Origin: Mycobacterium sp. 3519A
GTDB taxonomy: Bacteria > Actinomycetota > Actinomycetes > Mycobacteriales > Mycobacteriaceae
Length of the DNA: 64,000 nt
Direction: 5' to 3'
NCBI RefSeq assembly: GCF_900240945.1
Contig: NZ_OESG01000012.1
Location: 868,001 to 932,000 of the forward strand
Position 1 is the stretch's first letter; the number at the start of each line of letters is the position of its first letter. Of this stretch, positions 159-19,018 are shown in pieces. Both the position numbers and the translations under genes were made by a program. Under the pieces are notes generated by a model. It did no database searches. It saw only the letters and a list, made by a program, of their open reading frames with translations, and was not told the DNA's origin.

Positions 159-1151
159 CTAGGTGTACTGCCCAGGGAGGTTGGTCAACCGTGTGATGGG
201 CGGGACCTTGCCGATCGCCGAGTGTTGCCGGTGGTGATTGTAGGTATGGAGCCAGGCTGGAAGTGCGGATCGTCGGGCTAGTTCGTTGGGGTAGTGGCGC
301 GCGAAGGCCCATTCTTGGGCCATGGTGCGGTTGAACCGCTCGATCTTGCCGTTGGTCTGTGGGCGGTACGGCCGGGTGCGTTTGTGCTCGATCTGCAGTT
401 CAGCGCACGAGTCGCGCCATGCGTGGGACTTGTAGCAGGGGCCGTTGTCGGTGAGGACGCGTTCGATGGTGACTCCGCGCATACGGAACCAGCCTGCTGC
501 CCGGCGCAGGACACCAATGGCGGTCTGGGCGGTTTCGTTGTCGTGGATTTCGGCGTAGGCCACGCGCGAGTGGTCGTCGATGACGGTGTGCACGTAGGCA
601 TGCCCCATGATCGGTTGCCATCGATGGTTGCGGGTGGCGCCGGGAGTCGTAGTTCGATTCTTCGTGCCCTGGGCGCGGCCGACAAAGCGCCACCCACCGC
701 CCACGGGGATGTTGCCAAGCTTTTTAACGTCGATGTGCATCAGCGAACCCGGATGATCGTGCTCGTAGCGTCTAATAATCTCACCAGTTCGAATGTCAAT
801 GTGCGACAGGCGATTCAGTCGACACCGCACTAGCACCGCGTGCACCGTGGAGGCTGGCATCGACAACCGGGAGGCGATCGCTAAGGGTGAGAGTCGATGC
901 CGCCACCGTAGATGCTCAATCTTTCGTACCAATGTCGAGGGTGTGCGCGTGGGGCTGCGGTGCGGCCGGCTGGATCGGTCGGTCATGCCTTGTGGGCCCA
1001 TGGCCGCATACCGCGCGGCCCATCGCTTGGCGGTCGGCCAGGACACGTGGAAGTGCTCGGCGGCCCGAACAATCGGCCAGCCCTCCTCGACGACGCGACG
1101 CGCCAGTAGTAGGCGTCCACGAGGAGTCAAAACAGCATTAGCGTGGACCAC
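159..1151 (-). CDS. IS481-family transposase
   Basis: DDE transposase of 330 residues. The N-terminal ~110 residues hold a helix-turn-helix (RAAEHFHVSWPTAKRWAARY), followed by an rve/RNase H-like integrase core with the acidic residues in HIDVKKLG, VIDDHSR, VLTDNGPCY and KIERFNRTMAQEW. The start is taken as GTG at 1151 because AGGAGG stands five bases upstream and the family protein begins VVHANAxLTPRGR; the open frame extends 23 codons further upstream without support. The stop codon TAG (161-159) is formed partly by flanking DNA. The gene looks intact and potentially active. Confidence 0.9.
   Translation of the reverse strand: MVHANAVLTPRGRLLLARRVVEEGWPIVRAAEHFHVSWPTAKRWAARYAAMGPQGMTDRSSRPHRSPTRTPSTLVRKIEHLRWRHRLSPLAIASRLSMPASTVHAVLVRCRLNRLSHIDIRTGEIIRRYEHDHPGSLMHIDVKKLGNIPVGGGWRFVGRAQGTKNRTTTPGATRNHRWQPIMGHAYVHTVIDDHSRVAYAEIHDNETAQTAIGVLRRAAGWFRMRGVTIERVLTDNGPCYKSHAWRDSCAELQIEHKRTRPYRPQTNGKIERFNRTMAQEWAFARHYPNELARRSALPAWLHTYNHHRQHSAIGKVPPITRLTNLPGQYT
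161..185 (+). repeat. Left terminal inverted repeat of IS481 element
   Basis: Twenty-five bases that are an exact reverse complement of 1253-1277. The transposase gene reads through this repeat; its last residues (NLPGQYT) are encoded by it. Confidence 0.85.
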
Positions 1152-1252
1152 GAAGGCCTCCTGATAGTTGCGGTGAAGTGGTAGCAGCTCCACCCCACGA
1201 CAGGAGGCCTTCGCCATCAACGACCGCTACAGCGTGTCGTCACACTTCCCCA

Positions 1253-1277
1253 ACCAACCTCCCTGGGCAGTACACCT
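1253..1277 (-). repeat. Right terminal inverted repeat of IS481 element
   Basis: Exact reverse complement of 161-185. It lies about 100 bp upstream of the transposase start. Confidence 0.85.
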
Positions 1278-1309
1278 GATATGTAGGCACCGTTTGTCAA
1301 TAGGCAGGT

Positions 1310-1344
1310 GAAAGCCGCCCCGGTTTTGCGTCGGGGCGGCTTTC
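1310..1344 (+). terminator. Hairpin terminator beside the IS481 element
   Basis: A perfect 12-bp stem (GAAAGCCGCCCC / GGGGCGGCTTTC) with an 11-base loop, followed by a short T-rich run. It is typical in shape of mycobacterial intrinsic terminators; the gene it once served is not visible. Confidence 0.6.
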
Positions 1345-1583
1345 GTTTGATCGGGGTTAGTCGGTGTCGCGGCGGTCGTTGGTCAACGACGGTGGTGTCA
1401 GACTGATATGCGCGGGTTGGGTACCGCAAGACGATGGTTCGGTGCGAACGGTGGCTGCTCTCTAGGGACGGGCGTCACACCAGTACTTCGGGGAATGCTG
1501 TTGTGGCTCATAGCTGTAACGCAGATCCAGTTCGCCTACCTCGCCGTCGACCGGCTGACTCCGATCAAGTTCGGTGGCGGTTG
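1345..1583. other. Gene-free stretch between the IS481 and IS110 elements
   Basis: Together with 1278-1344 this is about 300 bp without a supported gene. A short plus-strand frame (about 1465-1587) encodes a hydrophobic C-terminal-like tail ending in VDRLTPIKFGGGC and may be the remnant of a decayed gene, but it has no ribosome-binding site. Nothing else was recognised. Confidence 0.4.
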
Positions 1584-2666
1584 TTAGTTCAGCGTGGCAA
1601 GTGACCAGCACCAGCCGGCCAGTTCACGGGCGATCGCGACATTGGCCACCACGTGGTGTTTCTTACGTTCGTTGAACCGGCACCACTGCTGGTGCAGGCG
1701 CCGGTTTCCGGCATGCCCGCGATCCTTGAGCGCCGGGTCGACCTTGGCCCAGCGTGCCCGCATCGTCGGTCCAGGATTGCGGTAGGCCGCCCGGTGATGC
1801 CACGCCGCCTCGATCAACAATCGCCGCACATGGGCGTTGCCGGCCTTGGTGATCGAGCCCTGCACCCGGGATGCACCCGAGGAGTACTCGGTGGGGACCA
1901 AGCCGACGTAGGCGCCGATCGAGGCGCCAGTGAACCGGGTCCAGTCACCGATCTCGACGCTCAACGCCAGCCCGGTCAGCGCCGAAATCCCCCGTAGACA
2001 CCCCAATCGATTGACCGGGTCAGCCCAGCGCGGCGAGGCTGCCACGGTGACGATCTGCTGGTCGAGACGATCTCTGGCGGCGGTGGCCGTCAAGACGGCG
2101 TCGAAGTGATGGTCGAATGCCGCCATGGTGTGGGAATCGTCAAATCGTTGTCGACGAAGCCAGGTTTCGTGCACCCCGTTCCATGCCTGCCCACCGCAGT
2201 ACACCCGGCCGTGGCGCAGCAATAGTTTGGACAACCGGTGCCGGACTCGCATCAGATCAGCGCGCGCGTCTTCACGCGCACGCACCAGATCGCGCACCGC
2301 CTCCACGTCGGCCTCGGGCACGGTGACCGCGGTGATCTCGCCCAGACGCAGTAACCGGGTCAGATGCGCGGCATCGCGGGCATCGGTCTTGACCCGATCC
2401 CCGGCAGGACGGATCAACTTCGACGGCGCGGCAACCACGCAGTCGATCTCGGCGGCGGCCAAAGCCCGCGCGAGCCCGAACCCCGTCGGCCCAGCCTCAT
2501 AGGCCACCCGTACCGGACCTCGCAGCCGGTCTAGCCACGCCAGGATCTCGCCGTGATCGGGACACAACCGTGCCCGCTCAACCCGCCCCGTTTCTTCATC
2601 GACGGCATGGGCAACCACCGAAAGCGCATGCACGTCCAACCCGACACTCGTACCGTTGAAACTCAC
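1584..2666 (-). CDS. IS110-family transposase
   Basis: Transposase of 360 residues of the DEDD (RuvC-like) type. The N-terminal domain carries GLDVH, YEAGPTG and TDARDAAHL, matching the acidic tetrad of IS110 enzymes; the C-terminal half has the transposase_20 region (LRGISALTGLALSVEIGD and GNAHVRRLLIEAAWHHR) with the conserved serine-containing segment SSGASR. GTG at 2666 is chosen because AGGAGG lies six bases upstream; a TTG seven codons earlier would place the Shine-Dalgarno sequence inside the gene. IS110 elements lack obvious inverted ends, so the element boundaries were not assigned. It appears intact. Confidence 0.9.
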   Translation of the reverse strand: MSFNGTSVGLDVHALSVVAHAVDEETGRVERARLCPDHGEILAWLDRLRGPVRVAYEAGPTGFGLARALAAAEIDCVVAAPSKLIRPAGDRVKTDARDAAHLTRLLRLGEITAVTVPEADVEAVRDLVRAREDARADLMRVRHRLSKLLLRHGRVYCGGQAWNGVHETWLRRQRFDDSHTMAAFDHHFDAVLTATAARDRLDQQIVTVAASPRWADPVNRLGCLRGISALTGLALSVEIGDWTRFTGASIGAYVGLVPTEYSSGASRVQGSITKAGNAHVRRLLIEAAWHHRAAYRNPGPTMRARWAKVDPALKDRGHAGNRRLHQQWCRFNERKKHHVVANVAIARELAGWCWSLATLN

Positions 2667-2789
2667 CGGAGGCCTCCTGATCTGCAACTGTGGCTCTACC
2701 GATGCGAGTGTTCACTCATCGTCGGCAACCCACGTCCGATTGCAGCCCGAGGCCTTCGGCCTCAAGTCGCCTCCATACCGTCTAGGGAG
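2667..2789. other. Intergenic, IS110 flank with small hairpin
   Basis: No gene is visible. A short perfect hairpin (6-bp arms GAGGCC/GGCCTC around TTC) lies at 2749-2763 and could be a terminator or part of the IS110 end. Confidence 0.4.
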
Positions 2790-2931: not shown

Positions 2932-3235
2932 CGGTTTTGGTGGTTCTCAACATCGCTCTGAGATCCGGTTATTTCCCAGTGCTACAAGGGATTCCAGTGT
3001 CGTTCGGTTTCCAACGATAGAGCGCGCATTCCGGTCGTATCCCATCCATAACCGATGAATAATGGATGGCGAAAATGAGTAGGGACATAGCCACATAATT
3101 TGGGGGCGCGAAAGAAGTCCACGGTGTGGGTCCGACCGTGTCAGGGCCCCCTCGGCGCGCTTGCAGCACGTCCGAAGATCCCGAGCGCTGTCGTCTATGC
3201 GCCCCGGACGCATCCCCTCAAACCTGTCCAAATCG
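2932..3235. other. Island left end without a supported gene
   Basis: About 300 bp between attL and the abiEi control region. Open frames on both strands lack ribosome-binding sites and family resemblance. Base composition is more A+T-rich than the core. Confidence 0.4.
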
Positions 3236-3281
3236 GATACGAAACGTCTACAGGTGGCATTATCTGTCAACGTTTCATATC
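3236..3281 (+). promoter_or_regulatory. Inverted repeat operator upstream of abiEi
   Basis: Arms GATACGAAACGT (3236-3247) and AACGTTTCATATC (3269-3281) match at all but one position of 12-13 and flank a 21-base centre. It ends 25 bp before the AbiEi start. AbiEi antitoxins are known to repress their own promoter by binding inverted repeats, so this is probably its operator. Confidence 0.55.
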
Positions 3282-3306
3282 ATCCTCGCACCTAGGAGGT
3301 GACATC

Positions 3307-3864
3307 ATGGATGCTCTGACGCCGAGCACTGCGGGGCAGGTCGGCCTCTCGCGCATCGGGCTCTTCCGTGCCGCGCGGGCCGGTCGGTTCGATCGCATCG
3401 CCCGCGGTATTTACCTGCCCGCGAACGCGTCGGCCACCGACTGGGATCAGATCGAGGCCGCGACACGGCGACCCGATGCGACGATCTGCCTGACCTCCGC
3501 GCTTTCTTATCACGACCTGACCGATGCGATCCCTGCCGCGCTGGACGTTGCGATCCCCCGGGGATCCAGGACGCCGGCGAGCACGGGTGCGATTGCGTGG
3601 CATCAGTTCGACCGAGCCACGTTCGAGGCCGGACGCGAGCACATCACGATCCCGGGATCGGGTCAGATGATCTGGATCTACTCCCCTGAGCGGTCGGTCG
3701 CCGACGCTTTTCGACTGCGTGGTGAGGTCGGGTACGAGCTGGGTCGCGACGCGCTGCGAGAATGGCTGCGTCGAGGTGGCAAACAAGGCCGGTTGATGGA
3801 CATCGCTTCGCGCCTCCCTAGAGCGAAGTCTCCGGTACTGCAGGCATTGGAGATGCTGGGATGA
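3307..3864 (+). CDS. AbiEi-type antitoxin (type IV toxin-antitoxin), orphan
   Basis: Protein of 185 residues resembling the AbiEi antitoxin/transcriptional regulator family: an N-terminal winged-helix segment (GLSRIGLFRAARAGRFDRIARGIYLP) followed by the C-terminal antitoxin domain (ICLTSALSYHDLTDAIP, VADAFRLRGEVGYELGRDALREWL). The ATG at 3307 has a perfect AGGAGGTGA Shine-Dalgarno sequence. In intact systems a nucleotidyltransferase toxin (AbiEii) follows, usually overlapping. Here only short frames follow: ATG AGC CCA GCG TGA overlapping the stop, and a GTG at 3872 giving 11 codons before TAA. The partner is therefore lost or truncated, and this is probably an orphan regulator or remnant. 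Confidence 0.78.
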   Translation: MDALTPSTAGQVGLSRIGLFRAARAGRFDRIARGIYLPANASATDWDQIEAATRRPDATICLTSALSYHDLTDAIPAALDVAIPRGSRTPASTGAIAWHQFDRATFEAGREHITIPGSGQMIWIYSPERSVADAFRLRGEVGYELGRDALREWLRRGGKQGRLMDIASRLPRAKSPVLQALEMLG

Positions 3865-3987
3865 GCCCAGCGTGACCGCGAAGCCAAATATCGTCAAGAA
3901 CCGCTAACAGAGTCACGGAGACGACTAATATCGGCGGGCGAAACGTTAAGGACTGAGATAGCCGGACCGTGGGGTGGGGGCGCCGCG

Positions 3988-5607
3988 TTGACCCAAGATT
4001 CAATCGCCGATGACTTACGCCGGAGGCTGGAGGATGATCCAGACCTTCGCGACCTAGCCTCCTGCATTCCGCGAATACAGGAGGCCGTGAAGGAAGTCTG
4101 GTCGACAAATTATCAACAATGGTTCACGGACCACGGCACTGCGCACAGCCGGCGCGTGGCTTCCTATGCGATGCAGCTGACGCAATTGCCATTACTTCAC
4201 GATTCTCAGAAGCTCACCACTCTTGAGATGTTCATTCTCTGGGCTTCTGCATGGCTACATGACATTGGCATGCAAGATCTGCGATCAGCTGGAGCACCAC
4301 TTGGACAGATGAACAGCGCGGATTACGCCCGCGTACGCCATGAGCACCCCGAGCGAAGCTCAGAGAATATCCTTCATGAATGGCGCAAGTTAGGACTCCC
4401 GGACGGTGATGCTGCTCTAGTTGACGTTGTCGCCGATGTCGCGCGCGCACACGGTACTAAATTTTACAAGGACACCGTCGAAAATCGCTTACATGATGTA
4501 TCAACCGTCCGAAACAAAGAAGTTCGACCGAGGCTTCTGGCGGCGATTCTCCTATTTGCAGATGAGCTAGACCTTCACAACCAGAGGGTGGTCTTGTTGG
4601 GTGGCTGGCCCAAGAACAACGCGGTATCGGAGGCTCACTCCTTCAAACACAGCATCGTCCGATCAGTGCGACCAATTTGTGAAAGAAACGGTGGAATTGC
4701 AGTCGAACTGGAATTGTTGTTTCCGCCTAAACTGCCCGTGACCGACCAACAGCATGTTCAGCGATGGATAGAAGTGAAACTTCAGAAGCAAATGGGGATG
4801 GTCGAGCCTCAACTGAGAGCAGGATTCACCGCCCAAGCCCACTTCGATCGAATTATTCGCACGAGTGTAAGCACTTCGCGCACTCAAACTCCCCTGCCAT
4901 CGGCAGCGGCGCTGGCCATTATTCGCGCTGAAACAAGCCGCGATGAGCTAATCAATCACCAAAGTACCTTCGATCGCGTTCAAAGAGAACTTGATAGCAA
5001 CGGTGTGGTCGTCGTCGTTCCAAGAGGGCGCGGCATCGTGTCCCCTCGGGATGACGGCCGCGCAGACCTGGTCGAGGCTTTGGCTGCCGCTGCAGAGTCG
5101 GCCGGCCGAAAGACATGTGTTAGCCGGCAGGCTGATCTCGCGCTTGGCGCGACCACCGCCAGCGATGTCCTCGCACAGTGGCTGGCGTGCCTTAGTCTGC
5201 CGGTCGATGGCTCTGATTCAGGAAGCGCTGACGTAGATGGGAGATTGAACCAGCTCTTAGATGCCCTTACGTCGCAGGCTGACGAGACATATCTCTTCGG
5301 GATCCTCGGGGGCGAGTTTTTGAACGAAACCGATCTTGTTTGGATCGCCGAACAGGCAGTTCCGCGCATCCGCGAACGCTGTCCTACTGCTGGATTCGCG
5401 ATCACCAACAGCGTCGATCGATCCTTCGTCGTTCCAGGTACTGCAGTAACAACTGTCTCTATGTCAGACTTGTCAGAGCAGGATGTGGCCGACTATCTGA
5501 GACGCTTCACTGGGGAGGACGTCGCTGCAGCCGAGAGCCGGACACTTGATTCATACAGCAAAGTGAAGCTGCAGGGACAAGAACACTTGCTCGCGCAGCG
5601 AAGGTGA
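3988..5607 (+). CDS. HD-domain protein with degenerate NTPase-like half (putative defence)
   Basis: Protein of 539 residues. Residues ~45-195 form an HD phosphohydrolase-type domain with H49 and H53 (DHGTAHS), H91-D92 in HDIGM, H118/H120, H155 and D192 in ADELD, so the metal ligands look complete. It resembles the HD domains found in bacterial conflict proteins. Residues ~310-539 look like a STAND/AAA-type module without a proper P-loop: a strand plus VVVVVPRGRG where GxxxxGK would be expected, an ILGGEF strand and an LSEQDVADYLRRF segment as seen before the winged helix of such NTPases. The start is TTG at 3988; no better start is present. The next gene continues in the same frame after two stop codons. 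Codon use is more A+T-rich than the core. Function is not established. Confidence 0.7.
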   Translation: MTQDSIADDLRRRLEDDPDLRDLASCIPRIQEAVKEVWSTNYQQWFTDHGTAHSRRVASYAMQLTQLPLLHDSQKLTTLEMFILWASAWLHDIGMQDLRSAGAPLGQMNSADYARVRHEHPERSSENILHEWRKLGLPDGDAALVDVVADVARAHGTKFYKDTVENRLHDVSTVRNKEVRPRLLAAILLFADELDLHNQRVVLLGGWPKNNAVSEAHSFKHSIVRSVRPICERNGGIAVELELLFPPKLPVTDQQHVQRWIEVKLQKQMGMVEPQLRAGFTAQAHFDRIIRTSVSTSRTQTPLPSAAALAIIRAETSRDELINHQSTFDRVQRELDSNGVVVVVPRGRGIVSPRDDGRADLVEALAAAAESAGRKTCVSRQADLALGATTASDVLAQWLACLSLPVDGSDSGSADVDGRLNQLLDALTSQADETYLFGILGGEFLNETDLVWIAEQAVPRIRERCPTAGFAITNSVDRSFVVPGTAVTTVSMSDLSEQDVADYLRRFTGEDVAAAESRTLDSYSKVKLQGQEHLLAQRR

Positions 5608-5616
5608 AGGTGAAGT

Positions 5617-7047
5617 ATGGACCGACTTGAGGCGCAAGCTTCTGTCCTCAGCGTCCCGCCGGCCTTCGATGCAGACGTCGCTGCGGATATCCTTCGCAGC
5701 TCGCACGCTTGGCTCTCCGAACTGAAGGGCGACGACTCAGACCCGATTTCCGCGCTCCGCATCGCGGGCCTCCTCGTCGAGTCGCAGGGCGTTATGAGAA
5801 TCGCCGATCCGTTGAGAGCCGAGCTAGCTCGCCGACTGGCGACGGATCATCCGGCTCAGTACCGAGAGTCGGCGACCGCCTTCTCGAGGCACGCGCGCAA
5901 CGGGTTTCATGGCCGTCTGGCCCACTTACTTGGAGACCGAGGAGCCATGGTGAGCGCTGCCACGCTCGGTTTGACGGCGGCGGACAAGGAATCGGAGCGG
6001 GAGCAGGCCGACTGGCTATTGGAGGTTTTGACTACCGAGCCGGTCCGGACTGTCGATGCTGCGGCAGCTGTCCGCCAGCTAGAGCGGTCACCGCTGCGCC
6101 GCCCAGAAACTGATCGATTGGCTGCGCTCTTGCACGGATTGTATGAGTGGGGCCAGGGATGCCAGCAGAACGCGTCGGAGCAGTTCGAACTGGTGTTGAG
6201 TCAGCGTGAAGGAGATCGCACCGAAGCAATCGCAGAATATCTCCTTGGTGCGTATCGCGCCGAACAGGGTGACCATAGTTCAGGTCTTCTACACCTCGGT
6301 GCGGCCATCGATCTCCTGCGGAAGCTAGACGACTCGCCGCGCCTTGCGAAGGCATTGCTTTCGTACGGACGTGCCTTAATTGCGGGGGGCCATGCCGGCG
6401 CCGCATCCATCGATACGGTGGAGGTGGCTTCCGAACAACTTCGCATGGCGACAGCGGCGCTTGAAGAGGCGGTTGCAATAGCTATTAAAGTTGGCGACGA
6501 TCTCATTAAGGGCTTAGCACTTTTAGAATTGTCTCGTGTCGAGTACTCATCCGAACGCATCGACGCAGCGATAAAACTGGCTGAAGATGCGGCGCGAGCT
6601 CTGGCGGACCATGACCGAGAGCTTTTGGGCGCCCTGACTTTCATGGGCTTTCTTTACAGAGAGGCCGGCTTGCGCGACGAAGCCCGTCAAGCATTAACAG
6701 ACGCCGCCAACCTCGCAGCTAGGACAGAAGCACCAGATTTGAGCCTCGCCAGGCTGCTCAATTTTCAAGCGAGTATGGACCAACGGGCAGGGCTGGTGCA
6801 CGAAGCGATCGATAACGCTCGAGAAAGTGTCGCAATCGGAAGACGATCGGGCGATCGCCAGCACACCGCGATTGCACTGCATACTCTCGCAGCCATCCTC
6901 CTTGATATAAATAGTGCTGACGCCACCAACGAAGCCGTCGAATACCTCCAAGAATCTCAAGCGCTGCTGAAAGATATCGATGACAAAAACGGAATTGAGA
7001 TGGTTGAACGGACGCTCGAGCGGGCGCGAAGCTCACCCTCAGCGTAA
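5617..7047 (+). CDS. Winged-helix/TPR protein, partner of the HD-domain gene
   Basis: Protein of 476 residues. Residues 1-80 have the pattern of the winged helix that follows the NTPase in STAND proteins (LSVPPAFDADVAADIL and LLVESQGVMRIADPLR). From about residue 150 to the end the sequence is helical repeats of TPR type (for example LLGAYRAEQGDHSSGLLHLG, LARLLNFQASMDQRAGLVHE, ALHTLAAILLD). ATG at 5617 follows the HD gene by nine bases, is in the same reading frame, and has the purine-rich GGTGAAGGTGAAG upstream as ribosome-binding site. The two genes together have the domain order of a single STAND sensor (effector, NTPase, wHTH, TPR) cut into two polypeptides. Confidence 0.7.
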   Translation: MDRLEAQASVLSVPPAFDADVAADILRSSHAWLSELKGDDSDPISALRIAGLLVESQGVMRIADPLRAELARRLATDHPAQYRESATAFSRHARNGFHGRLAHLLGDRGAMVSAATLGLTAADKESEREQADWLLEVLTTEPVRTVDAAAAVRQLERSPLRRPETDRLAALLHGLYEWGQGCQQNASEQFELVLSQREGDRTEAIAEYLLGAYRAEQGDHSSGLLHLGAAIDLLRKLDDSPRLAKALLSYGRALIAGGHAGAASIDTVEVASEQLRMATAALEEAVAIAIKVGDDLIKGLALLELSRVEYSSERIDAAIKLAEDAARALADHDRELLGALTFMGFLYREAGLRDEARQALTDAANLAARTEAPDLSLARLLNFQASMDQRAGLVHEAIDNARESVAIGRRSGDRQHTAIALHTLAAILLDINSADATNEAVEYLQESQALLKDIDDKNGIEMVERTLERARSSPSA

Positions 7048-7281
7048 TGCATTTAGCAGTTCGGTGCGAAACGGCGCTATCGTCGCACTATAAGTGATCG
7101 CTGTTGCGACGGTTTCTCCGTCTGGCGCTCGCAACATTGAGGGTGGTCAAGCTGTTCGCCCACAACGTCCGGCTGCGACCCACGGGGCTGACAAGATCGG
7201 AAGATGCGACCGCGCGACCCTGGCCGAACCTGACCCAAATTGAGTTGCTGCTCTGTTGCCTACTTTCGCAATAATTCTCTT

Positions 7282-8313
7282 GTGAGCACCAGCGAGGTGG
7301 GTCCCGGCGAGCAGAAGCCAACCTGGGACGTGAAAGAGATTAGACGCGACAATTGGGAGAAGTCCGAGCGGCCCGTGTTGCACTCGCGGGACGGCAACAA
7401 GGTCTACGTCCGAGCGGTTGATCCATGTGACCCCGAGCCTGAGATCGTCCAGGTCTATGAGGGCGACGAGGTGATCGTCATGGAGCATTACTCCCACATA
7501 AGTCACCACACGACCCCAGAGGGACCCGACGGATATCTGCTGCCACAACGCATCGTCCCGGACCGCGAAGAGCCGGGCAAGGTGTTCGCGCGGACCCTAC
7601 GCATCGGGGAGCCTGACGACGGGCGACGGGTGCATGTGCGCCCCGGCGATCAACTGTCCTTTGACGAAGGCGCAATCAGCCTCCACATCGACGACGTCGA
7701 CGAGTGGGAGAGCAAGGGAGTAATCGGTTATGTGCCCCTCACACCCGTCCTGTTCACGTGGATGTGCTTTGGCACGCACCATCCCGAAGAAAAGCAAAGA
7801 TATCTGCTGTCGGCTGCCAGGCGACTCGACCGGGCGCAGACGCTTTTCCGAAGGGTCAGCGAACTGCGATACGAACTCCAAGAGAGTCCCCCCGAGGGCG
7901 CGCCCGCCATTCGGCGCGCCGTCTTTGATCTGGTCGGTACAACGGAGCTGGCCCTTGTCGCCCTCAATCGCGCCATGGACATGTGCGTACAGGCATCGAC
8001 AGCGATCGGAGCGAACCAGGCGGTGCCGCCTGAAATTACGCGCCTGCGAAGGTGTGTGGGGGAGATCCGCGACGCTTACGAGCATATCGACGAACGCGCT
8101 GTGGGCGAAGTACGCAACAATCCAAACCCGAACGCTCTGTCCGTCTTTGACCATGACCGGATCATCGCGGATGGCGTCATCGCCTATGGCGGTTACCTGT
8201 TAGACCTTACAACTGACGTCCAGGATCTCATCATCGCTGCACGGCAGCACCTAAAAACGGTCACCGGCGAAGCCCTGCCAGCCACTTCTGTCAGCCCGAC
8301 CAACACAACTTGA
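7282..8313 (+). CDS. Unknown protein with HEPN-like RxxxxH motif
   Basis: Protein of 343 residues from GTG 7282 (a TTG at 7240 would add 14 residues). Residues ~10-155 look beta-rich and are unassigned. Residues ~165-330 are helical and contain RDAYEH (R263 to H268), which fits the Rx4-6H signature of HEPN RNases, followed by IDER. No family could be named. It follows the HD and TPR genes in the same direction after a 234-bp gap, so it may be a separate unit or the effector of the same system. No Shine-Dalgarno sequence is obvious before the GTG; an AATAAT box about 12 bases upstream would allow a leaderless transcript, but this is a weak inference. Confidence 0.6.
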   Translation: MSTSEVGPGEQKPTWDVKEIRRDNWEKSERPVLHSRDGNKVYVRAVDPCDPEPEIVQVYEGDEVIVMEHYSHISHHTTPEGPDGYLLPQRIVPDREEPGKVFARTLRIGEPDDGRRVHVRPGDQLSFDEGAISLHIDDVDEWESKGVIGYVPLTPVLFTWMCFGTHHPEEKQRYLLSAARRLDRAQTLFRRVSELRYELQESPPEGAPAIRRAVFDLVGTTELALVALNRAMDMCVQASTAIGANQAVPPEITRLRRCVGEIRDAYEHIDERAVGEVRNNPNPNALSVFDHDRIIADGVIAYGGYLLDLTTDVQDLIIAARQHLKTVTGEALPATSVSPTNTT

Positions 8314-8422
8314 TCGCGCACACTTGAGCGCACGCGGGCTGTCGACTAGCTCGATCCCAATGAAAACGATCGCGCATCCCCCTCTGCACTCGAATGAAGA
8401 GTGATCGCGAGTCACAGAGGGA

Positions 8423-11224
8423 TCACAGCTGAATACCGTGGTCCGGATTCGAGGTTCGGGTGACGTGGCGCTCACTCCATCGCTTACTGTCTGACGTGGC
8501 AATATGCGTCTGCTCCTGCCATTTCAGATAGTTCTTGCACCGGCGTTTAGCTGCTTTCGCGCGTTGGTCAACGAATGAGGCAACCGGCTCGGAGAGATGA
8601 TCCGGCTCGGTGGTGGCACTGACATCGTGAGCGGTGCGGGCTCGCGCGTCGTGAGTAGCGATGATGTCGCGCAACAGATGGGCAGCGTCGCGGCTGCTTC
8701 CGCGACGCGCGACGTAGATGTCCTCATGCTCGCTATGCTCGTGATCGCCATCCCCGACGCCGCGCTGAAACAGGTAGGCCGTGTTGGATTCGCGGCCGCG
8801 CGTCATCGCGACGTACAGCATTGCGCGGGTGCTGTTTTCGCCGAGGACGCTCTGAGTCGTGTCCGCGGTGACGCCTTGGGCAGAATGCACGGTGACCGCG
8901 TAACCGTAGGTGATGTGCTCCGTCAGGTAATCACCCGTCAAGACGGCGCGGGCGCCGTCGTCGAGGCGGCGCGCGGCGACGCGATCGTGTTCGGGGTCGA
9001 TGGCGTAGACGCGCCAGCGGTTGCCATTACGGACCGGGTCGGCAGCCGGCTCGTTCCGGGTGGCATCGAGGACCGGGAGGGCGGGGTCGTTGCGGCGGCT
9101 GATGATCAAGTCCCCGACCGCGACCCGATGTCCACGCGCGACACCAATCGTGGGTGCCTTCGGGTCGATGGTGTCGGTGTGGATGCGTCGGTTGAGTGCG
9201 TCGGCCATTTCTGTTGTGTCGCAGAGCAGCAGCGCGTCCTTGCCGTCTGCGGTGTCGGCGCGGTAAGCAGCTAGTGCGTCGGTGGCCATGGCGATTTCGT
9301 CGCCCGTGTGCAACCTGTCGTGGGTGCGGTACCAGTCGATCGCGCGGCGCACCGGTGCGGGCCCGCCGTCGCGCAGCGCGAGGGATGCGGCGCGTTCCTG
9401 GCGGTCGTGCATGCGCCACACCTCGGACAGTTTCTGGGTCCAGGGCAGGTCGTCGCAGAGTTGGGCGAACATGCCCCCGCGAGCCTTCACCGGCGCCAGC
9501 TGGTGCGCGTCTCCGACGAGCACGGTCTTGATGTTGGCTTTCGTTGTCGCGGTGAGTAGTTGGTGTAGTTCGGTGGTGCCGACCATGCCCGCTTCATCGA
9601 CAATTACGAGGTCGAGATGGTCGAATGTGAGGGCGCCGTTATGTAACTCGTGTAGGGCTTTGGCGATGGTGTATCCGGTGTCGCCGGCACCTTCGCGCAC
9701 GGCGACATCGACGGCCTTACCGGTTGGCGCGAGGACCAGAATGCGGCTCTGGCGGCGGCGCGCCACCGCGGCTAGCACCCGCATGGAAGTGGTCTTGCCG
9801 GCCCCCGCCGGCGCGCTCACCGGCTGCACCAACCACGGTGACTTCGCGATGTTTTCGACCGCCCGTTTCTGATCCGGCGAGAGCCCTGCCGTGTCGGTGT
9901 CTTTGACCAACATCGAGGCCCGCACATCGCGGGCGTCGACGAGGTCGAGCAGCGCGGCTTCCTCCGCCAGAATGGAATCGGTGGTGAAACGTTCATGGCC
10001 CTCGCGCTGGTGCGGCTGTCGGGTCGCGGTGAGCCGCACCGCGACGTGATCGACAGCGCTCTCCACCAGCGTGCGCGGCGTGTGCTCGGTGTCCACAGGC
10101 AGTCGCGCGCCGATGATTTCGATCAGGTCGGCGCGGGTGAACGCGGCCTTCTCGATGTGCTGCGCGGCGGCCACCAACCAGTCCCGATTCAGCGGTATCC
10201 GCGCGGCTTGTTCACGCATCTGGCGGGCTTGGCGCCAGGCAGCGCCATCGATCGCCAAACTCCGCTCATCGGTGCGCCACTGCGCTCGCAACTCGGCCCA
10301 CGAAACGTGCTCGAGTTTGAGTGGTCGGGTCGCCTTTTGGGCGGTCGCGAGCTGGGCTGGCGTGAGTCGGCGGGCGTCCGCCACGGCCAGGTTTCCCGCT
10401 GCCCACTGGCGCAGTTGGGTTGAGCGTTGCGACCACGCGGTGATGGTGTCGCGGCTGATGCCGGCGACCTCGGCCATCCCCGTGGCGGGGTCCGCCACGG
10501 TCCATTCCACCCCCATGAGCCGGTGGAGTTCGCTGCGCAAGGTGGCTTGGTAGATGACCCCGGCGGCGCGGGCTTCGTGATACAACGACGCGCCGTCAAT
10601 CGACACGAGTTGGCCGTCGGGGCGGGCCTGGCGGTTGGGCACGATCACGTGGGTGTGCAGGTGCGGATCACCCGCCCGCGATGTCTCATGTTGGTAGGCG
10701 ATCGCCACCAACCCGGGCAACTTCACCAGATCCTTCTCCCCCGTCACCAGGTTATGGACGCGGGTGTATCCGGCATGAGCCGCAAGGTATTCCATCGCCT
10801 CACTGATCGCGGCGGCATGCGCGGCGGAGATTGCTTTGTCGGCCACCTCGTCGGCCCGCAGCGCACGTATCAGCGACACAGTTTTCGGGGCGCAGAACGT
10901 CAGATCGAAGCCGTGGACGCCGCGCGTTCCGAACGCGCGACCGCACGCTCGGTTGGGCGCCACACCATCGTCGAGCCAGCGCGCCACCACCTCGGTATCG
11001 GCCTCCCCGCCGGCACGCCGCAGGTCGGTTAGGCCGACGAGTTTCGCAGCGCTGTGGGTGTCACCGGCGCACAACCAGACTGGCGTGCGGGTGTCGTGTT
11101 CGGTGTAGTACTCGCCCAAACCGCCGCCCGGTTTTCGGGCATCTTTGACCGCCTCGCCGACAGCGTTGGCGGTGTCGTTGTAGTACTTGATCGACCAGCG
11201 CGACAGCTTCGCGATCGTCAACAT
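8423..11224 (-). CDS. MobF (TrwC/TraI-type) conjugative relaxase-helicase
   Basis: Protein of 933 residues. The N-terminal relaxase domain begins [10 protein letters not shown] and has the paired tyrosines (Y14-Y15 in IKYYND) that attack nic, and the three-histidine metal site in [11 protein letters not shown] (H188, H190, H192). A RecD-like SF1 helicase follows with Walker [11 protein letters not shown] (~470-480), Walker [19 protein letters not shown], and the C-terminal motifs [12 protein letters not shown] and [12 protein letters not shown] 11224 is preceded by GGGTGGTGG and matches the family N-terminus. It would nick the island's oriT and unwind the transferred strand, using a type IV secretion system supplied elsewhere. 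The protein is short compared with many actinobacterial MobF relaxases, so the C-terminus may be reduced. Confidence 0.92.
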
Positions 11225-11269
11225 GTCGACCACCACCCGAATCGAGATCGCCTGGCGCACAGCGTCTAC

Positions 11270-11297
11270 GAGGCAGCACACGAACGTGTGCTGCCTC
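11270..11297. promoter_or_regulatory. Perfect palindrome upstream of the relaxase (candidate oriT hairpin)
   Basis: Two perfect 13-base arms (GAGGCAGCACACG and its complement) separated by two bases, 45 bp upstream of the relaxase start. A smaller inverted repeat (GCACA-CCT-TGTGC) follows at 11305-11317. MobF relaxases recognise a hairpin next to nic, often close to their gene, so oriT is the first guess; an operator for relaxase control is the alternative. Confidence 0.5.
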
Positions 11298-11838
11298 AAA
11301 CCTCGCACACCTTGTGCAAATGTGCCACAGCAATATTGGGGGTTTTTAGCGAATTGCCATGGAGCGCAATGACGTTGGGTGGCGTAATACTGTTAAGGCG
11401 GGAAATGTCGAGAATCTAGTATCATTGATAGGAGTCAACGGCTGCAGGCATGACGAGGCGGGTCGGGTATCGAGCATGAGCATCGGGAGTTGACCTTCGG
11501 CGGGAGTGGCGGGCATTCACTCGCGCCGCGAACCCAACGATGCACAAGCCGTTCAGAAGGATTCGCCCGCAAAACAGTTTCGCTCGAAGCGCACATGCCA
11601 GGCAGGCCGGGCTCCCGCGGTTGGGACTCGGCAATCAGAATCTCCGAGGAGGCGACCGAGTAGAACCATAGGGGATGTCAGAGATGATGCGTGACCGTCC
11701 TGGTGCGGCGGCGAAGGAGTAGGCGCTCATCGTCTCGTGGGCGCGCCCAGCGGGCAGGTCACTAACCCAATCAGTCCGTTCCTCCTAAATGGAGTCCGGG
11801 GAGCCAGTGAACACGACGGTCTAAGCGCTGCGTGTCTA
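11298..11838. other. Gene-free stretch between relaxase and HNH genes
   Basis: About 540 bp that would hold the rest of an oriT region (nic side) and the relaxase promoter. Short open frames are present on both strands but none has a convincing ribosome-binding site or protein-like sequence. Confidence 0.4.
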
Positions 11839-13032
11839 CTAACCGAAGTATCCGCCTCCGTAGTAACCGCCGCTGTCCCAAACGGTGGTGGCCGCGCGCC
11901 AACCTTCGATGTCCGCGATTGCTTCAATGCATTCGGGGTCACCCATCGTCCAGCTACCGGTTAGCGAGAATCGACCGTTAGCGAAAACATCGCCTTGCAA
12001 TGACTCGGTGCTGCCTCCGTCCGCACTCGCCACCACTGCCGAACCTGAAAGGACGGCGTCAAACTCACCTCCAAACGTGAATGAGAAGACCTCACCGTGT
12101 CTTTCGACGCCAACCTTATCGATATTGATATCGATGTCGCCGTCGACCTCATCGACCGTCACGTCTTCATTCCGATCTTTGAACTCATGCGACTCGAGTG
12201 CGGATACTGCCTCCTCGACAATGGTTTCTCGGAGTCGGCTCACAGGCTGTTGGAGAGCATCGTCTAACGTCAACTGACAGACGTCTTCTAGGACGACCAC
12301 ACTCCTGCGGTCTCTAACATCAAGCGTCACAGAGACCTGTTGTTGAGTGCCTTCAGCCGGATCACCGACCCAAACTGTCCGTAACTCGTCGAAGTCGTGT
12401 GCCTTAGCCGGGTCGATCGCGGCGAGCCTGCGTACTAGTGGTGTCATATGTTCCTGGAACATAGAAATGTTCTCGGACTTGTCAAAGTCCATCGCCGCGA
12501 TTGTCTTAAGAAACTTAGCAATAGCTGTCGGACCTTCGAAGAACTCAGCCCGCCGGATGACATCTTCCTGTTTGGCCAAAGCCGTATGCAGTGCAGTCGC
12601 CACGACCGGAAAGCCGGAGACATCGTGATTTGACTTTTTCAGATTGCACGGCGCACAGATCGGCGCCAAGTTGTACGGCGCATCTAAGTCATAGCCTTCT
12701 ACGCGATCAGGAGGAAGCCACTTCGCTAAGTCATCTTGCTTCGTAGAACTTGGAACAATGTGATCGATCTGGACCGCCGCATAGTCGCTCTGCGGCTTGC
12801 CACACCAATAGCACCGTGTCCGATATGCATCGAACAAGGCGAGTTTCAATATGCCGTTATCGCCTCCGCTTCGATACCTGATCTCGCTTGGCATTCTCAA
12901 ACGGTAGATCAAGGGGCATGCTCGTAGCCCCTCGTTCGTCCACTCGGGAACCTGTGGACGTTTGCACTGTACGTGGCAGCGTGCGCAAGTCTCCCCGTCA
13001 TGCCGCTCGAGGTAGCTGTGGAAGTCCGCCAT
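11839..13032 (-). CDS. HNH endonuclease with unassigned C-terminal domain
   Basis: Protein of 397 residues. An N-terminal cysteine pair (ETCARC, C16/C19) precedes a full HNH module: CYWC (C74, C77), DHIVPSS (D90-H91), YNLAPIC (N121) and CAPCN (C126, C129, N130), i.e. a zinc-stabilised beta-beta-alpha nuclease. The C-terminal ~180 residues, from about 225, are acidic and beta-rich and end in a glycine/tyrosine tail (GGYYGGGYFG); I do not recognise them. ATG 13032 has AGGGA upstream; TTG at 13071 is an alternative. It is divergent from gajA and shares a 170-bp control region with it, which suggests a functional link to that defence pair. Confidence 0.8.
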   Translation of the reverse strand: MADFHSYLERHDGETCARCHVQCKRPQVPEWTNEGLRACPLIYRLRMPSEIRYRSGGDNGILKLALFDAYRTRCYWCGKPQSDYAAVQIDHIVPSSTKQDDLAKWLPPDRVEGYDLDAPYNLAPICAPCNLKKSNHDVSGFPVVATALHTALAKQEDVIRRAEFFEGPTAIAKFLKTIAAMDFDKSENISMFQEHMTPLVRRLAAIDPAKAHDFDELRTVWVGDPAEGTQQQVSVTLDVRDRRSVVVLEDVCQLTLDDALQQPVSRLRETIVEEAVSALESHEFKDRNEDVTVDEVDGDIDINIDKVGVERHGEVFSFTFGGEFDAVLSGSAVVASADGGSTESLQGDVFANGRFSLTGSWTMGDPECIEAIADIEGWRAATTVWDSGGYYGGGYFG

Positions 13033-13202
13033 CTGGTGAGTCCCTGTTGCCGATCCGATTGGGACGATCAACTATGAGCTAGCCCGGGGCGTGCGCAGGA
13101 GGTCGAGTACATCCCTGAATTCAAAGACACGCCGTGGGCTACGTCAGGCTCCGGCGGTCGATGATTCTATTGTCGGATTCCTCGGCTTTCGAAGGGTTCT
13201 AC

Positions 13203-15065
13203 ATGTACCTATCGCAGTTGTCTCTCCGGCACTTTCGTTCATGCCGTGACACCTCGGTCGTCTTCACCCCCGACCTCACAGTGGTCGTGGGCGAAAACGC
13301 TGCCGGTAAGACAGCGATAGTTGACGCGCTGAGGTTGGTTGCTTTCCCCGCCTCAGGCCGTCAGACAGTTTGGTTTGTCGGCGAACGCGATCTATCTCAC
13401 GGAATTGCTGTTGGAACGTCGGTCGACCTGTCTGCGCGTTACTCGGGTCTTAGCGATGATGAGCAATCGATCTACCTTGCGCAACTGATTGATGCTCACG
13501 GTGATCTTGTGTACACGGCGAGTTTTGCGACCAAAGCGGACGTACCGAAGCGGAGTGTTCTCACATGGGGGATCGGCGATGCGCGAGCAGAAGATCCGGA
13601 ACCGGCGTTGAGACGGCGAATCTCATACGTGTACATGCCGCCGCTCCGTGACGCGGTCAGGGATCTGGATGGCGGCGACCAAGCCCAACTTCACGATGTC
13701 CTTAGGATCGTCGTTGGCTCAGACGCCGAGCTCGAGGCGGACTTCATCGGTACCGCGAACGATGCACTGAGACAGGTAGCAGAGCACGGTCTGGCCGTGA
13801 CAACAAGGGAATCCATTCAGGCGTTCTTCAAGCAAACGACTCCGCCTAACCGCGAACACGTCATCGAGCTGAATCAGCGGAAGCTCGAACTACGACGCAT
13901 CGCTCGCCTCCTTCGTATTCAGCTCGCCGAACGGGAAATACCGATCGGGGATATCGCCGCGACCGGCCTGGGGTACGCCAACCTGCTGTACATCGCGATG
14001 GTTGTGCTTCAGCTGGTTAGGGCGAAAGAAAGTGATCTGACTTTACTCCTCGTCGAAGAACCCGAAGCACATCTTCACCCTCAGCTGCAACTGGTTCTCC
14101 TGGACTTTCTTCATGATCAAGCGAAGTCGAGCGGCCAGACCCACGACCCCAGTCTTCCAAGCGGCAAGGTTCAGGTCGTCGTCACGACCCACTCGCCCGT
14201 ACTAGCCAGCACAGTTTCGATTCGTAATGTCGTTGTCGTAGCTCGCGACAGCGATAGTGCCGATTGGTGTACGAAGGTGACCGCTATCCGCGAGATCGGT
14301 ATAGAGCCGGTGCAACGCCGTAAGATCGACCGCTACTTGAACTCGACGCGCGCAGCGTTGTTGTTCGCCCGAGACGTTGTTCTTGTGGAGGGTATAGCCG
14401 AGATGCTAGTGCTGCCGTCGCTAGCTCCGCACCGGCTTAAGGAGGCGGCTGGGAAGATAGTGGCCTCCGGCGGAGGTGAGTCCGACATCGATGCAGTCAC
14501 CAAGAGGCTGCTACGTCAATTCCGCAGTGCCACTTTAATAAACATTGAAGGTGTCGACTTTGAGCCGTACCTGCGTGTGCTTCTGGATGGCGATCATCCC
14601 CGTGTTGATCGAGTCGTGGTGGTGACTGATCGAGACCATACAGGAGCCGGCGAAGAACGAAAGACGTTCTACGAGCAGCGGTTCTTCCAGCACCTTGAGG
14701 CTGGACGGTTAGCAGTTGTCGTAGGCGGCACGACATTGGAAGCTGAGATGTTCAGAGTGCCCCAGAACGAAGAGCTGTTACACGCCGCGTTTCTGGCGTT
14801 GCACCCGCAGTCCGATCATCACTGGAAGAAGGTGGTGGCTGCAGTCGAAGGCCGAGAACCGGACGCCCGCGCGGAGACCTTCGCCACTGCAATCCGGGCG
14901 ACGTCCGCCAGCGATGAATATTACCTGGATATCGCAAAAGGTGATTTCGCACATGTGGTTGCTGAGGCATTGGAGTCCAACGACGGCTCTTCCCTTGGTG
15001 TTCCGGAATATCTAAAGGCCGCCATTGACGCGGTCGCGCATGTCGATGCGGCACAAGGTGACTGA
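13203..15065 (+). CDS. gajA: GajA-like OLD-family ATP-dependent nuclease
   Basis: Protein of 620 residues. The ABC-type ATPase part has Walker A GENAAGKT (30-37), the GLGYAN segment (255-260), Walker B LLLVEEPEAHLHP (281-292) and the H-loop TTHSP (H330). The C-terminal TOPRIM nuclease has the catalytic glutamate in LVEGIAE (E396) and the DxD pair in VTDRDH (D476, D478). This is the OLD nuclease architecture; next to a UvrD-like helicase it fits GajA of the Gabija anti-phage system, which cuts DNA when nucleotide levels fall. ATG 13203 is chosen because the protein then starts at the family position (LSLRHFRS) and GAAGG lies upstream. It overlaps gajB by eight bases. Confidence 0.85.
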   Translation: MYLSQLSLRHFRSCRDTSVVFTPDLTVVVGENAAGKTAIVDALRLVAFPASGRQTVWFVGERDLSHGIAVGTSVDLSARYSGLSDDEQSIYLAQLIDAHGDLVYTASFATKADVPKRSVLTWGIGDARAEDPEPALRRRISYVYMPPLRDAVRDLDGGDQAQLHDVLRIVVGSDAELEADFIGTANDALRQVAEHGLAVTTRESIQAFFKQTTPPNREHVIELNQRKLELRRIARLLRIQLAEREIPIGDIAATGLGYANLLYIAMVVLQLVRAKESDLTLLLVEEPEAHLHPQLQLVLLDFLHDQAKSSGQTHDPSLPSGKVQVVVTTHSPVLASTVSIRNVVVVARDSDSADWCTKVTAIREIGIEPVQRRKIDRYLNSTRAALLFARDVVLVEGIAEMLVLPSLAPHRLKEAAGKIVASGGGESDIDAVTKRLLRQFRSATLINIEGVDFEPYLRVLLDGDHPRVDRVVVVTDRDHTGAGEERKTFYEQRFFQHLEAGRLAVVVGGTTLEAEMFRVPQNEELLHAAFLALHPQSDHHWKKVVAAVEGREPDARAETFATAIRATSASDEYYLDIAKGDFAHVVAEALESNDGSSLGVPEYLKAAIDAVAHVDAAQGD

Positions 15066-16812
15066 GACCAATCCATTCGGGCTTAGCGACGAACAGCTTC
15101 GAGCCCTCCGACCTGAGATTCGCCTTGTAGAGGCCGGCCCGGGCGCCGGCAAGACGAGGACCGTCGTCGCCCGGTTACGGAGCAACTTCGAAGATGGCCG
15201 CCGAGTTGCGATGTTGTCTTTCACCAACGCCGCTGTCGACGTGGCCCGGCTAAGAGGTCGCGACGTTCCGCAGCTCCTTGAGGCGCCAAACTTCGTAGGC
15301 ACGTTCGACTCATTTTTTCGCCGATACGTTGTCACTCCCGCAACGATGCGGGGCAGCCGACGACCCACCTACGTTACGTCTTGGGATGATCTCCGCAACT
15401 CGATGGCAGTTGTGAGACCTGCGAACGGTGGCATCGGTATTCGGCTTACGCGCTTTGTGCAGCGCGGGGGTGTTTGGGTTATCGACGAAGACTCGCTGAG
15501 TCGAGCGGAACGGCTGGCTTGGGACAAGCTCACGGAGTGGTCAAGAGAAAACCTCAACCAGATTGGTCATCAGCGCATCGTCACCCTCCAAGAGAGCCAC
15601 GTGTACGACACGGCTGCAGCGCGGAAACGCGCTCTCATAGTTCTGGACTCGGCCGAGTCGCCTTTACGGCTGCTGGCACGGCGGTTCAACGAGATCATTA
15701 TCGACGAGTTTCAGGACTGCGACGAGACGGAGCATGACATCGTCGATCGACTCACGAGCGCAGGCATACACGTCGTCGCCGTTGCCGATCCAGACCAGGC
15801 AATCTACGAGTTCCGCCAAGCCAATTCCGCGTTGTACGAGCGCTTTCGCGAGCGGGTCGCAGACGAGGAGCGGGTAGCGCTGACTACGTGTTTCCGCTCG
15901 AGTCCGGTGATCTGCTCAGTAATCAATAGCCTTCGCGCAGTCGGCCTCGGTCAGGTCGTTCCGAGTGAAGACCATCCTGGTGGGTCTTCAACTGTTCACG
16001 TTGTCGTTGGGTCGGGAGTGAAAGCCGGAGAACGCGCTTATAGGATCTTGCGCCAGTCCGGCGTTTCGCCGATGAAGACCAGAGTTATTGCACATCGGAA
16101 GTCGGATGCGCGAGCTCTCTTGCGTGCCGGTAAGGAGCCGCCGCACGGTAGTTCGCAAATCGAGCTGCTTCTTGTAGCGTTGGCTGACTTGCATTCGGGC
16201 ACAGACCCTTCCGGGCGGCTGAGAGCGATACGTCGTGTGGAGTCGTTCCTACTCAGCCAGTTCGATTGGGACGGCCAAGACGTCGAGGGAAAGAGCGATC
16301 AGATCGAACGCCTTGGGGTTGCGTCGGCGGACTTGCGTGGCGTAGCCAGCGCGTTATTGCGGTCCTCGCTCTCGTGGACAGACGAAGCCTCTTGCAAGGC
16401 GAATGTACGTCGAATAGTGGAGGACTTCTCGAATCGAACTGATGTCGAGCTTCGACCACGCTTGGGCAACAGACTAAGTATTCCGGAGAAGGTATGGAAG
16501 TTCTGGAAGAGTAGGACTGCGGGGCTATTGACCGACGGTGTATCGGATGCACTCCGCTGGGGTCACGTACACGGTGTGAAGGGCGACGAGTTCGAGGCCG
16601 TGATTATGGCCATTCCGTCGAAGGCAACAGGCCCGAGTCACGTATTGGACGACTGGCAGGGCGGTCGCAATTCGGAGCAGCGCCGAGTGCTGTACGTAGG
16701 CGTAAGCCGAGCAATGCGTGAGCTGGTGATCGTTGTGCCCCCATCGCGGCGAGACCAATTGGAAGCCATTTTAGCGGACGCAGAGATCAGTTACACCGTG
16801 GTTGTCGCCTGA
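15058..16812 (+). CDS. gajB: GajB-like UvrD/Rep-type SF1 helicase
   Basis: Protein of 584 residues with all superfamily 1A motifs: Walker A AGPGAGKT (26-33), Ia LSFTNAAV, II IIDEFQDCDE, III VADPDQAIYEFR, IV TCFRSS, V HGVKGDEFEAV and VI YVGVSRA. In Gabija, GajB partners GajA and its NTP hydrolysis contributes to activation. The start is uncertain: GTG 15058 overlaps the gajA stop and places the Q-motif region (GLSDEQLRAL) near the N-terminus; ATG 15046 or 15040 would add four to six residues. The overlap implies translational coupling. Confidence 0.85.
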   Translation: MTETNPFGLSDEQLRALRPEIRLVEAGPGAGKTRTVVARLRSNFEDGRRVAMLSFTNAAVDVARLRGRDVPQLLEAPNFVGTFDSFFRRYVVTPATMRGSRRPTYVTSWDDLRNSMAVVRPANGGIGIRLTRFVQRGGVWVIDEDSLSRAERLAWDKLTEWSRENLNQIGHQRIVTLQESHVYDTAAARKRALIVLDSAESPLRLLARRFNEIIIDEFQDCDETEHDIVDRLTSAGIHVVAVADPDQAIYEFRQANSALYERFRERVADEERVALTTCFRSSPVICSVINSLRAVGLGQVVPSEDHPGGSSTVHVVVGSGVKAGERAYRILRQSGVSPMKTRVIAHRKSDARALLRAGKEPPHGSSQIELLLVALADLHSGTDPSGRLRAIRRVESFLLSQFDWDGQDVEGKSDQIERLGVASADLRGVASALLRSSLSWTDEASCKANVRRIVEDFSNRTDVELRPRLGNRLSIPEKVWKFWKSRTAGLLTDGVSDALRWGHVHGVKGDEFEAVIMAIPSKATGPSHVLDDWQGGRNSEQRRVLYVGVSRAMRELVIVVPPSRRDQLEAILADAEISYTVVVA

Positions 16813-17648: not shown

Positions 17649-17725
17649 GGCCTACTTTGTCGGATGTGAGCGCTACGCTGCGCGAGAAGAGAGATGAGCG
17701 TTAACCGCCCGCGCAGTTGAGGACG

Positions 17726-18922: not shown

Positions 18923-18942
18923 TCTTGAAAAATGGCCTCTGG

Positions 18943-18981
18943 AGTGGGGCGGGCGGGGCTCGAACCCGCGACCAACGGATT
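18943..18981 (-). repeat. attR: 3' half of tRNA(CAU), island right border
   Basis: Perfect copy of 2893-2931. It covers the tRNA from its 3' end to one base before the anticodon, so integration leaves the tRNA gene functional. Confidence 0.9.
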
Positions 18982-19018
18982 ATGAGTCCGCGGCTCTAAC
19001 CGACTGAGCTACCGCCCC
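18945..19018 (-). tRNA. tRNA with anticodon CAU, probably elongator Met
   Basis: Seventy-four bases fold as a full cloverleaf: acceptor GGGGCGG/CCGCCCC, D arm starting GCTC AGTCGGTTA GAGC, anticodon stem GCGGA/TCCGT with loop CTCATAA (anticodon at 18984-18982), and T stem GCGGG/CCCGC. CCA is not encoded. CAU is read as methionine unless TilS modifies it to an isoleucine tRNA; the sequence alone does not settle this. It is the integration target of the island. Confidence 0.93.

Follow-up and report, generated by a model that had tools for sequence, protein, structure and literature searches.

Organization of the locus

The window analysed here is a stretch of 64,000 nucleotides from Mycobacterium sp. 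3519A (contig NZ_OESG01000012.1). Near its start, three genes run in tandem on the + strand, which a first-pass annotation made from the sequence letters had grouped into one candidate undescribed defence system comprising an HD protein, a winged-helix/tetratricopeptide repeat (TPR) protein and a HEPN-like protein. The three genes themselves are real, with open reading frames (ORFs) at 3988–5607, 5617–7047 and 7240–8313. Gene 1 (3988–5607, +) encodes 539 residues from a TTG start at 3988, inferred from alignment with full-length relatives. Gene 2 (5617–7047, +) begins 9 bp after gene 1 and encodes 476 residues, with a probable winged helix and a TPR array. Gene 3 (7282–8313, +), the HEPN-like neighbour, encodes 343 residues from a GTG at 7282; its frame opens at 7240 (at most 357 residues) and the GTG codons at 7282 and 7297 are equally likely starts, so that the gap between genes 2 and 3 is 192–249 bp depending on the choice of start. 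As described below, genes 1 and 2 are found together in other genomes, and we propose that they encode the two halves of a split NLR-like receptor.

Gene 1 carries an intact HD-CE domain and an NTPase-like half without a P-loop

Residues 45–234 of gene 1 (4120–4689, +) match the Pfam family HD-CE (PF24391) with an E value of 9.6e-26 and a score of 91.5 bits (cut-off 27). The predicted metal ligands are H49, H91, D92, H120, H155 and D192. In an alignment of the window protein with 44 of its 56 hits (P0001, P0034, P0041 and P0048–P0056 excluded), H91, D92, H120, H155 and D192 are invariant in all 45 rows, and H49 is present in 44, the remaining row having a gap; the intact ligands noted in the first-pass annotation are thus borne out. 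In the protein searches with genes 1 and 2, the roughly 8,000 candidates sharing most words were scored, and among these the nearest named relative of gene 1 is a Mycolicibacterium record with 91% identity. HD-CE fits an effector module, since fusions with EAD7, pYEATS, trypsin and AAA domains occur in other hits, as do fusions with STAND–TPR. Passages of PMC8195603 count the HD domain among the potential enzymatic effectors of conflict proteins. A profile search of PDB sequences with the HD alignment gave sub-significant matches only.

The second half of gene 1 (residues ~317–539; 4936–5604, +) has a STAND/ORC-type NTPase fold: structure comparison of the predicted model shows that it folds like ORC/Cdc6 and apoptosome NTPases. 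The P-loop, however, is lost, as expected for the degenerate NTPase-like half recognized earlier. The P-loop lysine is absent from all 45 aligned rows, position 358 being occupied by R in 33 rows, Q in 4, S in 3, A in 2, C in 1, L in 1 and a gap in 1, and GK[ST] is mostly replaced by G-R-x-D in the family. The first Walker B acid is also mostly lost (D or E in 4/45 rows at position 440, which was chosen by eye). Across the 56 hits, a GxxxxGK[ST] motif after residue 250 occurs only in P0050 and P0053, two AAA fusions not included in the alignment. The gene 1 model found no match at E ≤ 0.001 among viral structure models.

Gene 2 encodes a TPR protein

Gene 2 contains a TPR array at residues ~205–452 (6229–6972, +), which matches Pfam TPR_12 (E = 3.3e-13) and TPR sequences in the PDB, in agreement with the TPR assignment of the first-pass annotation. 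Ten of the 11 hits entered the gene 2 alignment, together with six loci and the window protein. In the colinear alignment, the N-terminal part lands on the winged-helix position of the single-chain STAND relatives described below, and a probable winged-helix segment is placed at residues ~40–80 (5734–5856, +), where STAND proteins carry this domain.

Genes 1 and 2 occur as a pair in other genomes

In a genome scan with one genome per species, 80 stretches matched, of which 17 are loci encoding relatives of gene 1. A gene 2 relative lies directly downstream of the gene 1 relative in all seven other actinobacterial loci (L003–L008 and L015); in the five of these with a whole HD frame, the two genes overlap or are spaced by 1 bp. 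Comparison of 133 ORFs from seven neighbourhoods and the window revealed the HD and TPR proteins as the only ones common between loci at E ≤ 1e-4. A protein search with gene 2 found 11 proteins among the candidates scored, several of them on contigs equal in length to those carrying gene 1 hits. Furthermore, the pair distances of gene 1 and gene 2 are correlated (r = 0.98, 11 pairs), to which shared host ancestry contributes.

The HD gene is frame-interrupted in two of the eight loci (L007:7965–9531 and L015:8001–9558), by decay, sequencing error or frameshifting, and the TPR gene is open in both.

Single-chain relatives share the domain order of the pair

Outside the Actinomycetota, four of ten loci encode single-chain proteins of 893–1109 residues in which HD-CE, a P-loop NTPase and TPRs follow one another in the same order as in the pair. 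These are L009 (7998–11192, Planctomycetota) and L012 (7998–11234, Nitrospirota), both with a C-terminal SEC-C motif, L014 (2233–5562, Riflebacteria), which has an NB-ARC match at E = 2.2e-10, and L016 (7532–10213, Deltaproteobacteria). In contrast to the pair, they are built as one chain and retain a P-loop of the form GLGGxGKT, the first G being replaced by A in L012. All four are themselves candidate NLR-like proteins. The remaining loci are more varied: L013 has the same HD-CE/NTPase/TPR content spread over two frames; L010 and L011 are near-identical archaeal copies encoding HD-CE and a STAND-like NTPase, with no TPR match in L010, the copy scanned; in L018 HD-CE is accompanied by an AAA ATPase, L019 has its own P-loop, and in L017 neither P-loop nor TPR is seen.

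Comparison of the HD profiles between split and single-chain proteins gave an E value of 5.6e-44. When genes 1 and 2 were concatenated, leaving out L007 and L015 with their interrupted HD frame, they aligned to the single chains along one path of 876 columns with a score of 364; the reversed concatenation aligned in two pieces scoring 316 and 80.

In the HD tree (47 rows entered, P0029 dropped by the length filter), the actinobacterial P-loop-less type groups as 29 rows with support of 97/79, and 28 of these with 98/92. L009, L012, L013, L014, L016 and L017 stand apart from the actinobacterial type (6 rows, 98/92). Deeper joins are unsafe because long branches and unusual letter make-up fall in exactly those six rows. 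L017–L019 are labelled 'single' in this tree, though they are not HD–STAND–TPR proteins.

The HEPN-like neighbour appears to belong to a separate family

The RxxxxH motif of the third protein, noted in the first-pass annotation, is well preserved: in an alignment of the window protein with 52 of 120 listed hits, R263 and H268 (counted from the GTG at 7282) show conservation of at least 90% over 53 rows. The predicted model, with a predicted local distance difference test score of 92.3, contains a helical bundle with the motif (8068–8085) at the end of the helix 250–267. As the HEPN superfamily is outlined in the sections of PMC3710099 covered, a bundle helix ends in an Rx4-6H motif with a polar residue after R, and gene 3 has this arrangement, with D in that place. 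Gene 3 resembles that superfamily in its predicted bundle and its motif and has, in addition, an N-terminal beta part. No Pfam family scored above its cut-off, and a profile search of PDB sequences with the HEPN alignment gave sub-significant matches only. Gene 3 looks like a HEPN-like protein of a family separate from the HD/TPR pair.

The family was found in none of the seven other pair-bearing genomes. Reciprocally, neither of the two other HEPN-bearing records, G604 and a Tsukamurella record of which the plasmid was searched, contains a relative of gene 1. The family is present in 2/251 family genomes and 1/394 class genomes, has one plasmid match (Tsukamurella), and is absent from viral_contigs. 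Because the HD and TPR genes co-occur in 7/7 loci and the HEPN gene does not, the conserved unit is supported as two genes, not three. Co-occurrence elsewhere was the test that the first-pass annotation had set for its own proposal, and it upholds the first two genes together and detaches the third.

On the Tsukamurella plasmid (L038:18902–23729), the relative of gene 3 is flanked by genes for an AAA ATPase and an ApeA-like HEPN protein. In one source, members of the family (e.g. P0079) carry the name 'light-mediated development protein DET1', apparently transferred in error from plants.

Comparison with known defence systems

Avs and bNACHT are bacterial STAND/NLR-like defence proteins. Such proteins combine an effector, a STAND fold and superstructure-forming repeats, as this pair does; the STAND fold and the C-terminal repeats are both present here, the repeats as TPRs on the separate gene 2 polypeptide, and the P-loop is missing. 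The profiles of PADLOC-DB 2.0.0 matched gene 1 only with RT_UG24 (15.8 bits, over a short stretch) and gene 2 with generic TPR, and gave nothing for gene 3. AVAST/Avs or another PADLOC system was rejected, as no system profile in that database matched. The profile checks proposed in the first-pass annotation thus returned HD-CE and TPR_12 from Pfam, no family for gene 3 and no PADLOC system, and the idea of an undescribed defence-like system survives for the two-gene HD/TPR unit, not for three genes.

Inactive STAND versions, one of them fused to GT4 or HEPN effectors, have been described in portions of PMC7159879 and PMC8195603. Relative to the systems in those portions, the effector here is HD-CE, the receptor consists of two polypeptides, and there is no shared MoxR–vWA partner. 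None of the eight window proteins scanned belongs to a vWA or MoxR family, and the iSTAND MoxR–vWA ternary system was rejected, no third protein being common to the eight loci. Clover resembles the pair in that CloA is an HD dNTPase effector controlled by a partner in a two-gene operon, according to extracts of PMC12265719. The partner there, however, is the nucleotidyltransferase CloB and here a TPR protein. Clover was rejected because the TPR gene, and not a nucleotidyltransferase gene, is the only neighbour common to the eight loci. In BREX, the excerpted account of PMC12839542 reports that BrxB retains a STAND/ORC-type fold without Walker motifs within a defence system, as gene 1 may do; it differs in being a BREX component, with no HD domain in that description.

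Among the papers listed by the literature searches (at most 20 for each), titles and abstract openings mention no HD–STAND–TPR defence pair; in the same library, 'HD-CE' as a whole word appears only in papers unrelated by title, and PF24391 in none. The DefensePredictor study validated TPR systems (PMC13092281, in the text retrieved), and that text does not contain 'HD domain'.

The pair as a putative split NLR-like receptor

Because the HD/TPR pairing is conserved and the single-chain relatives keep the same domain order, we consider it moderately probable that the pair is a split NLR-like (STAND-type) two-gene anti-phage module, with gene 1 as effector and gene 2 as sensor. The effector would be the HD domain, a metal-dependent phosphohydrolase borne on the STAND NTPase fold, and the TPR protein would supply the winged-helix and repeat half that the single-chain relatives carry on the same polypeptide. 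Since the P-loop is lost, the STAND fold of gene 1 is probably a scaffold. We infer that the two proteins would form a complex in which HD activity is kept off; the TPR surface or the STAND fold may sense an infection cue, after which the complex would rearrange without an ATP switch and free the HD site. The freed site could hydrolyse a cellular phospho-substrate, most likely nucleotides, whereupon phage replication and cell growth would stop.

Several observations weigh against this proposal. PADLOC-DB 2.0.0 holds no system matching the pair. The fold of gene 1 is known from a predicted model, for which the best Foldseek E value is 3e-3, and the NTPase half scored 18.9 against the single-chain profile, where the best of 40 column shuffles reached 17.9 (P = 0.19). 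With this half near the shuffle level, the case for a split receptor leans on homology of the HD part, on the fold, on the domain order and on the TPRs. The order test is itself modest, because the two reversed pieces sum to more than the forward score. Likewise, the first 150 residues of gene 2 scored 15.4 and shuffles reached 17.6; as this match alone does not beat shuffled columns, the winged helix of the first-pass annotation, placed by position, is likely and no more than that. In addition, the neighbour context is mixed among the neighbours scanned, with L007 adjoining genes that look by eye like gatCAB.

In the usual NLR model, shared by bacteria, plants and animals, the receptor is switched by nucleotide exchange in its STAND domain. 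We tentatively suggest that the Actinomycetota pairs could represent a lineage of split NLR-like receptors without an ATP switch, in which nothing but binding of the TPR protein to a nucleotide-free STAND scaffold would gate the HD phosphohydrolase activity; this more specific version is possible, and we would not put it higher. If true, a conserved clade in which effector, STAND fold and TPR half persist and every aligned member lacks the P-loop would let ATP-free gating be studied directly, and an HD phosphohydrolase would join the NLR effectors with an enzymatic output that can be tested.

A signalling or housekeeping regulator, in which the TPR protein would control an HD phosphodiesterase or nucleotide hydrolase with no defence role, seems rather unlikely, given that the pair sits on an integrated island with Gabija and is very patchily spread: it occurs in 1/396 sampled genomes of the phylum, which is its own genome, and in 2/396 genomes of the order around G1026, both already among the loci found. 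We also regard as unlikely a toxin–antitoxin-like pair, in which a toxic HD protein and a TPR protein acting as plain inhibitor would serve mainly to stabilise the mobile island and not to sense phage. The adjacency and tight spacing of the genes, on an island that also carries relaxase and integrase genes, would suit it, but the TPR and STAND architecture and the P-loop-bearing single-chain relatives fit a regulated receptor better than a labile antitoxin. HD, TPR and HEPN domain types all occur in defence systems, and the three genes follow one another on the same strand in the window; a three-gene HD/winged-helix-TPR/HEPN system was nevertheless rejected on co-occurrence over nine other genomes and records, only genes 1 and 2 being found together elsewhere, and with the gap of 192–249 bp before gene 3 it is very improbable.

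Island setting and distribution

The position of the block between abiEi and a relaxase, its A+T-richness and the presence of other defence genes, all reported in the first-pass annotation, hold up. Upstream of gene 1 lies an orphan AbiEi-like antitoxin gene (3307–3864, +; PADLOC AbiEi, E = 1e-46), and no AbiEii-sized ORF was found between the two. A short GTG-started peptide followed by a stop comes after the abiEi-like gene (3307–3900), perhaps a remnant of the partner gene; comparison with the relatives L036 and L037 gave no decision either way on insertion of the pair into an abiE operon. Downstream of gene 3 are a MobF relaxase gene (8423–11308, −; NCBIfam MobF, E = 1.3e-72) and a gene for an HNH protein with weak PtuB-like and GmrSD_C-like matches (11839–13071, −), beside the Gabija genes gajA (13134–15065; PADLOC, E = 3.9e-178) and gajB (15025–16812; E = 9.6e-110), whose frames overlap by 41 bp. 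A tyrosine integrase gene (17717–18922; Pfam Phage_integrase, E = 1.3e-19) adjoins a tRNA-Met gene (18944–19018), and together they probably mark one end of the island (17717–19018). IS481-type and IS110-type transposase genes occupy the start of the window (159–2687, −).

The GC fraction is 0.53–0.61 over 4001–8000, compared with 0.62–0.71 over 17–64 kb. Within 3600–8700, one promoter-like site was found, against 1.8 in shuffles, and nine terminator-like sites, against 4.1 (standard deviation 2.0); those on the + strand are all intragenic and were left unused. An Rfam scan of the first 20 kb of the window returned nothing but the tRNA.

Among 61 relatives, the pair was found only in its own genome, with one weak partial match in G011 (E = 3.4e-4). 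A tblastn search with the HD gene (E ≤ 1e-5) matched none of 72,556 plasmid records and none of 50,697 phage records; viral_contigs likewise gave no match, and the DNA of 3100–8400 had no distant match among plasmids. On these searches, from which close kin of the window were possibly excluded, the placing of the HD gene on phages or plasmids was rejected.

Other genes accompany the pair in related loci. An OloB-like protein is encoded near the L003 pair (L003:12767–14335, −), and a type II methyltransferase and an NsnA/PD-T4-2_A-like GmrSD protein near that of L004 (L004:4648–7133). Downstream of the L007 pair (L007:11106–11953, −) lies an HTH–nucleotidyltransferase gene identified by Pfam, together with a small gene that by eye is HepT-like.
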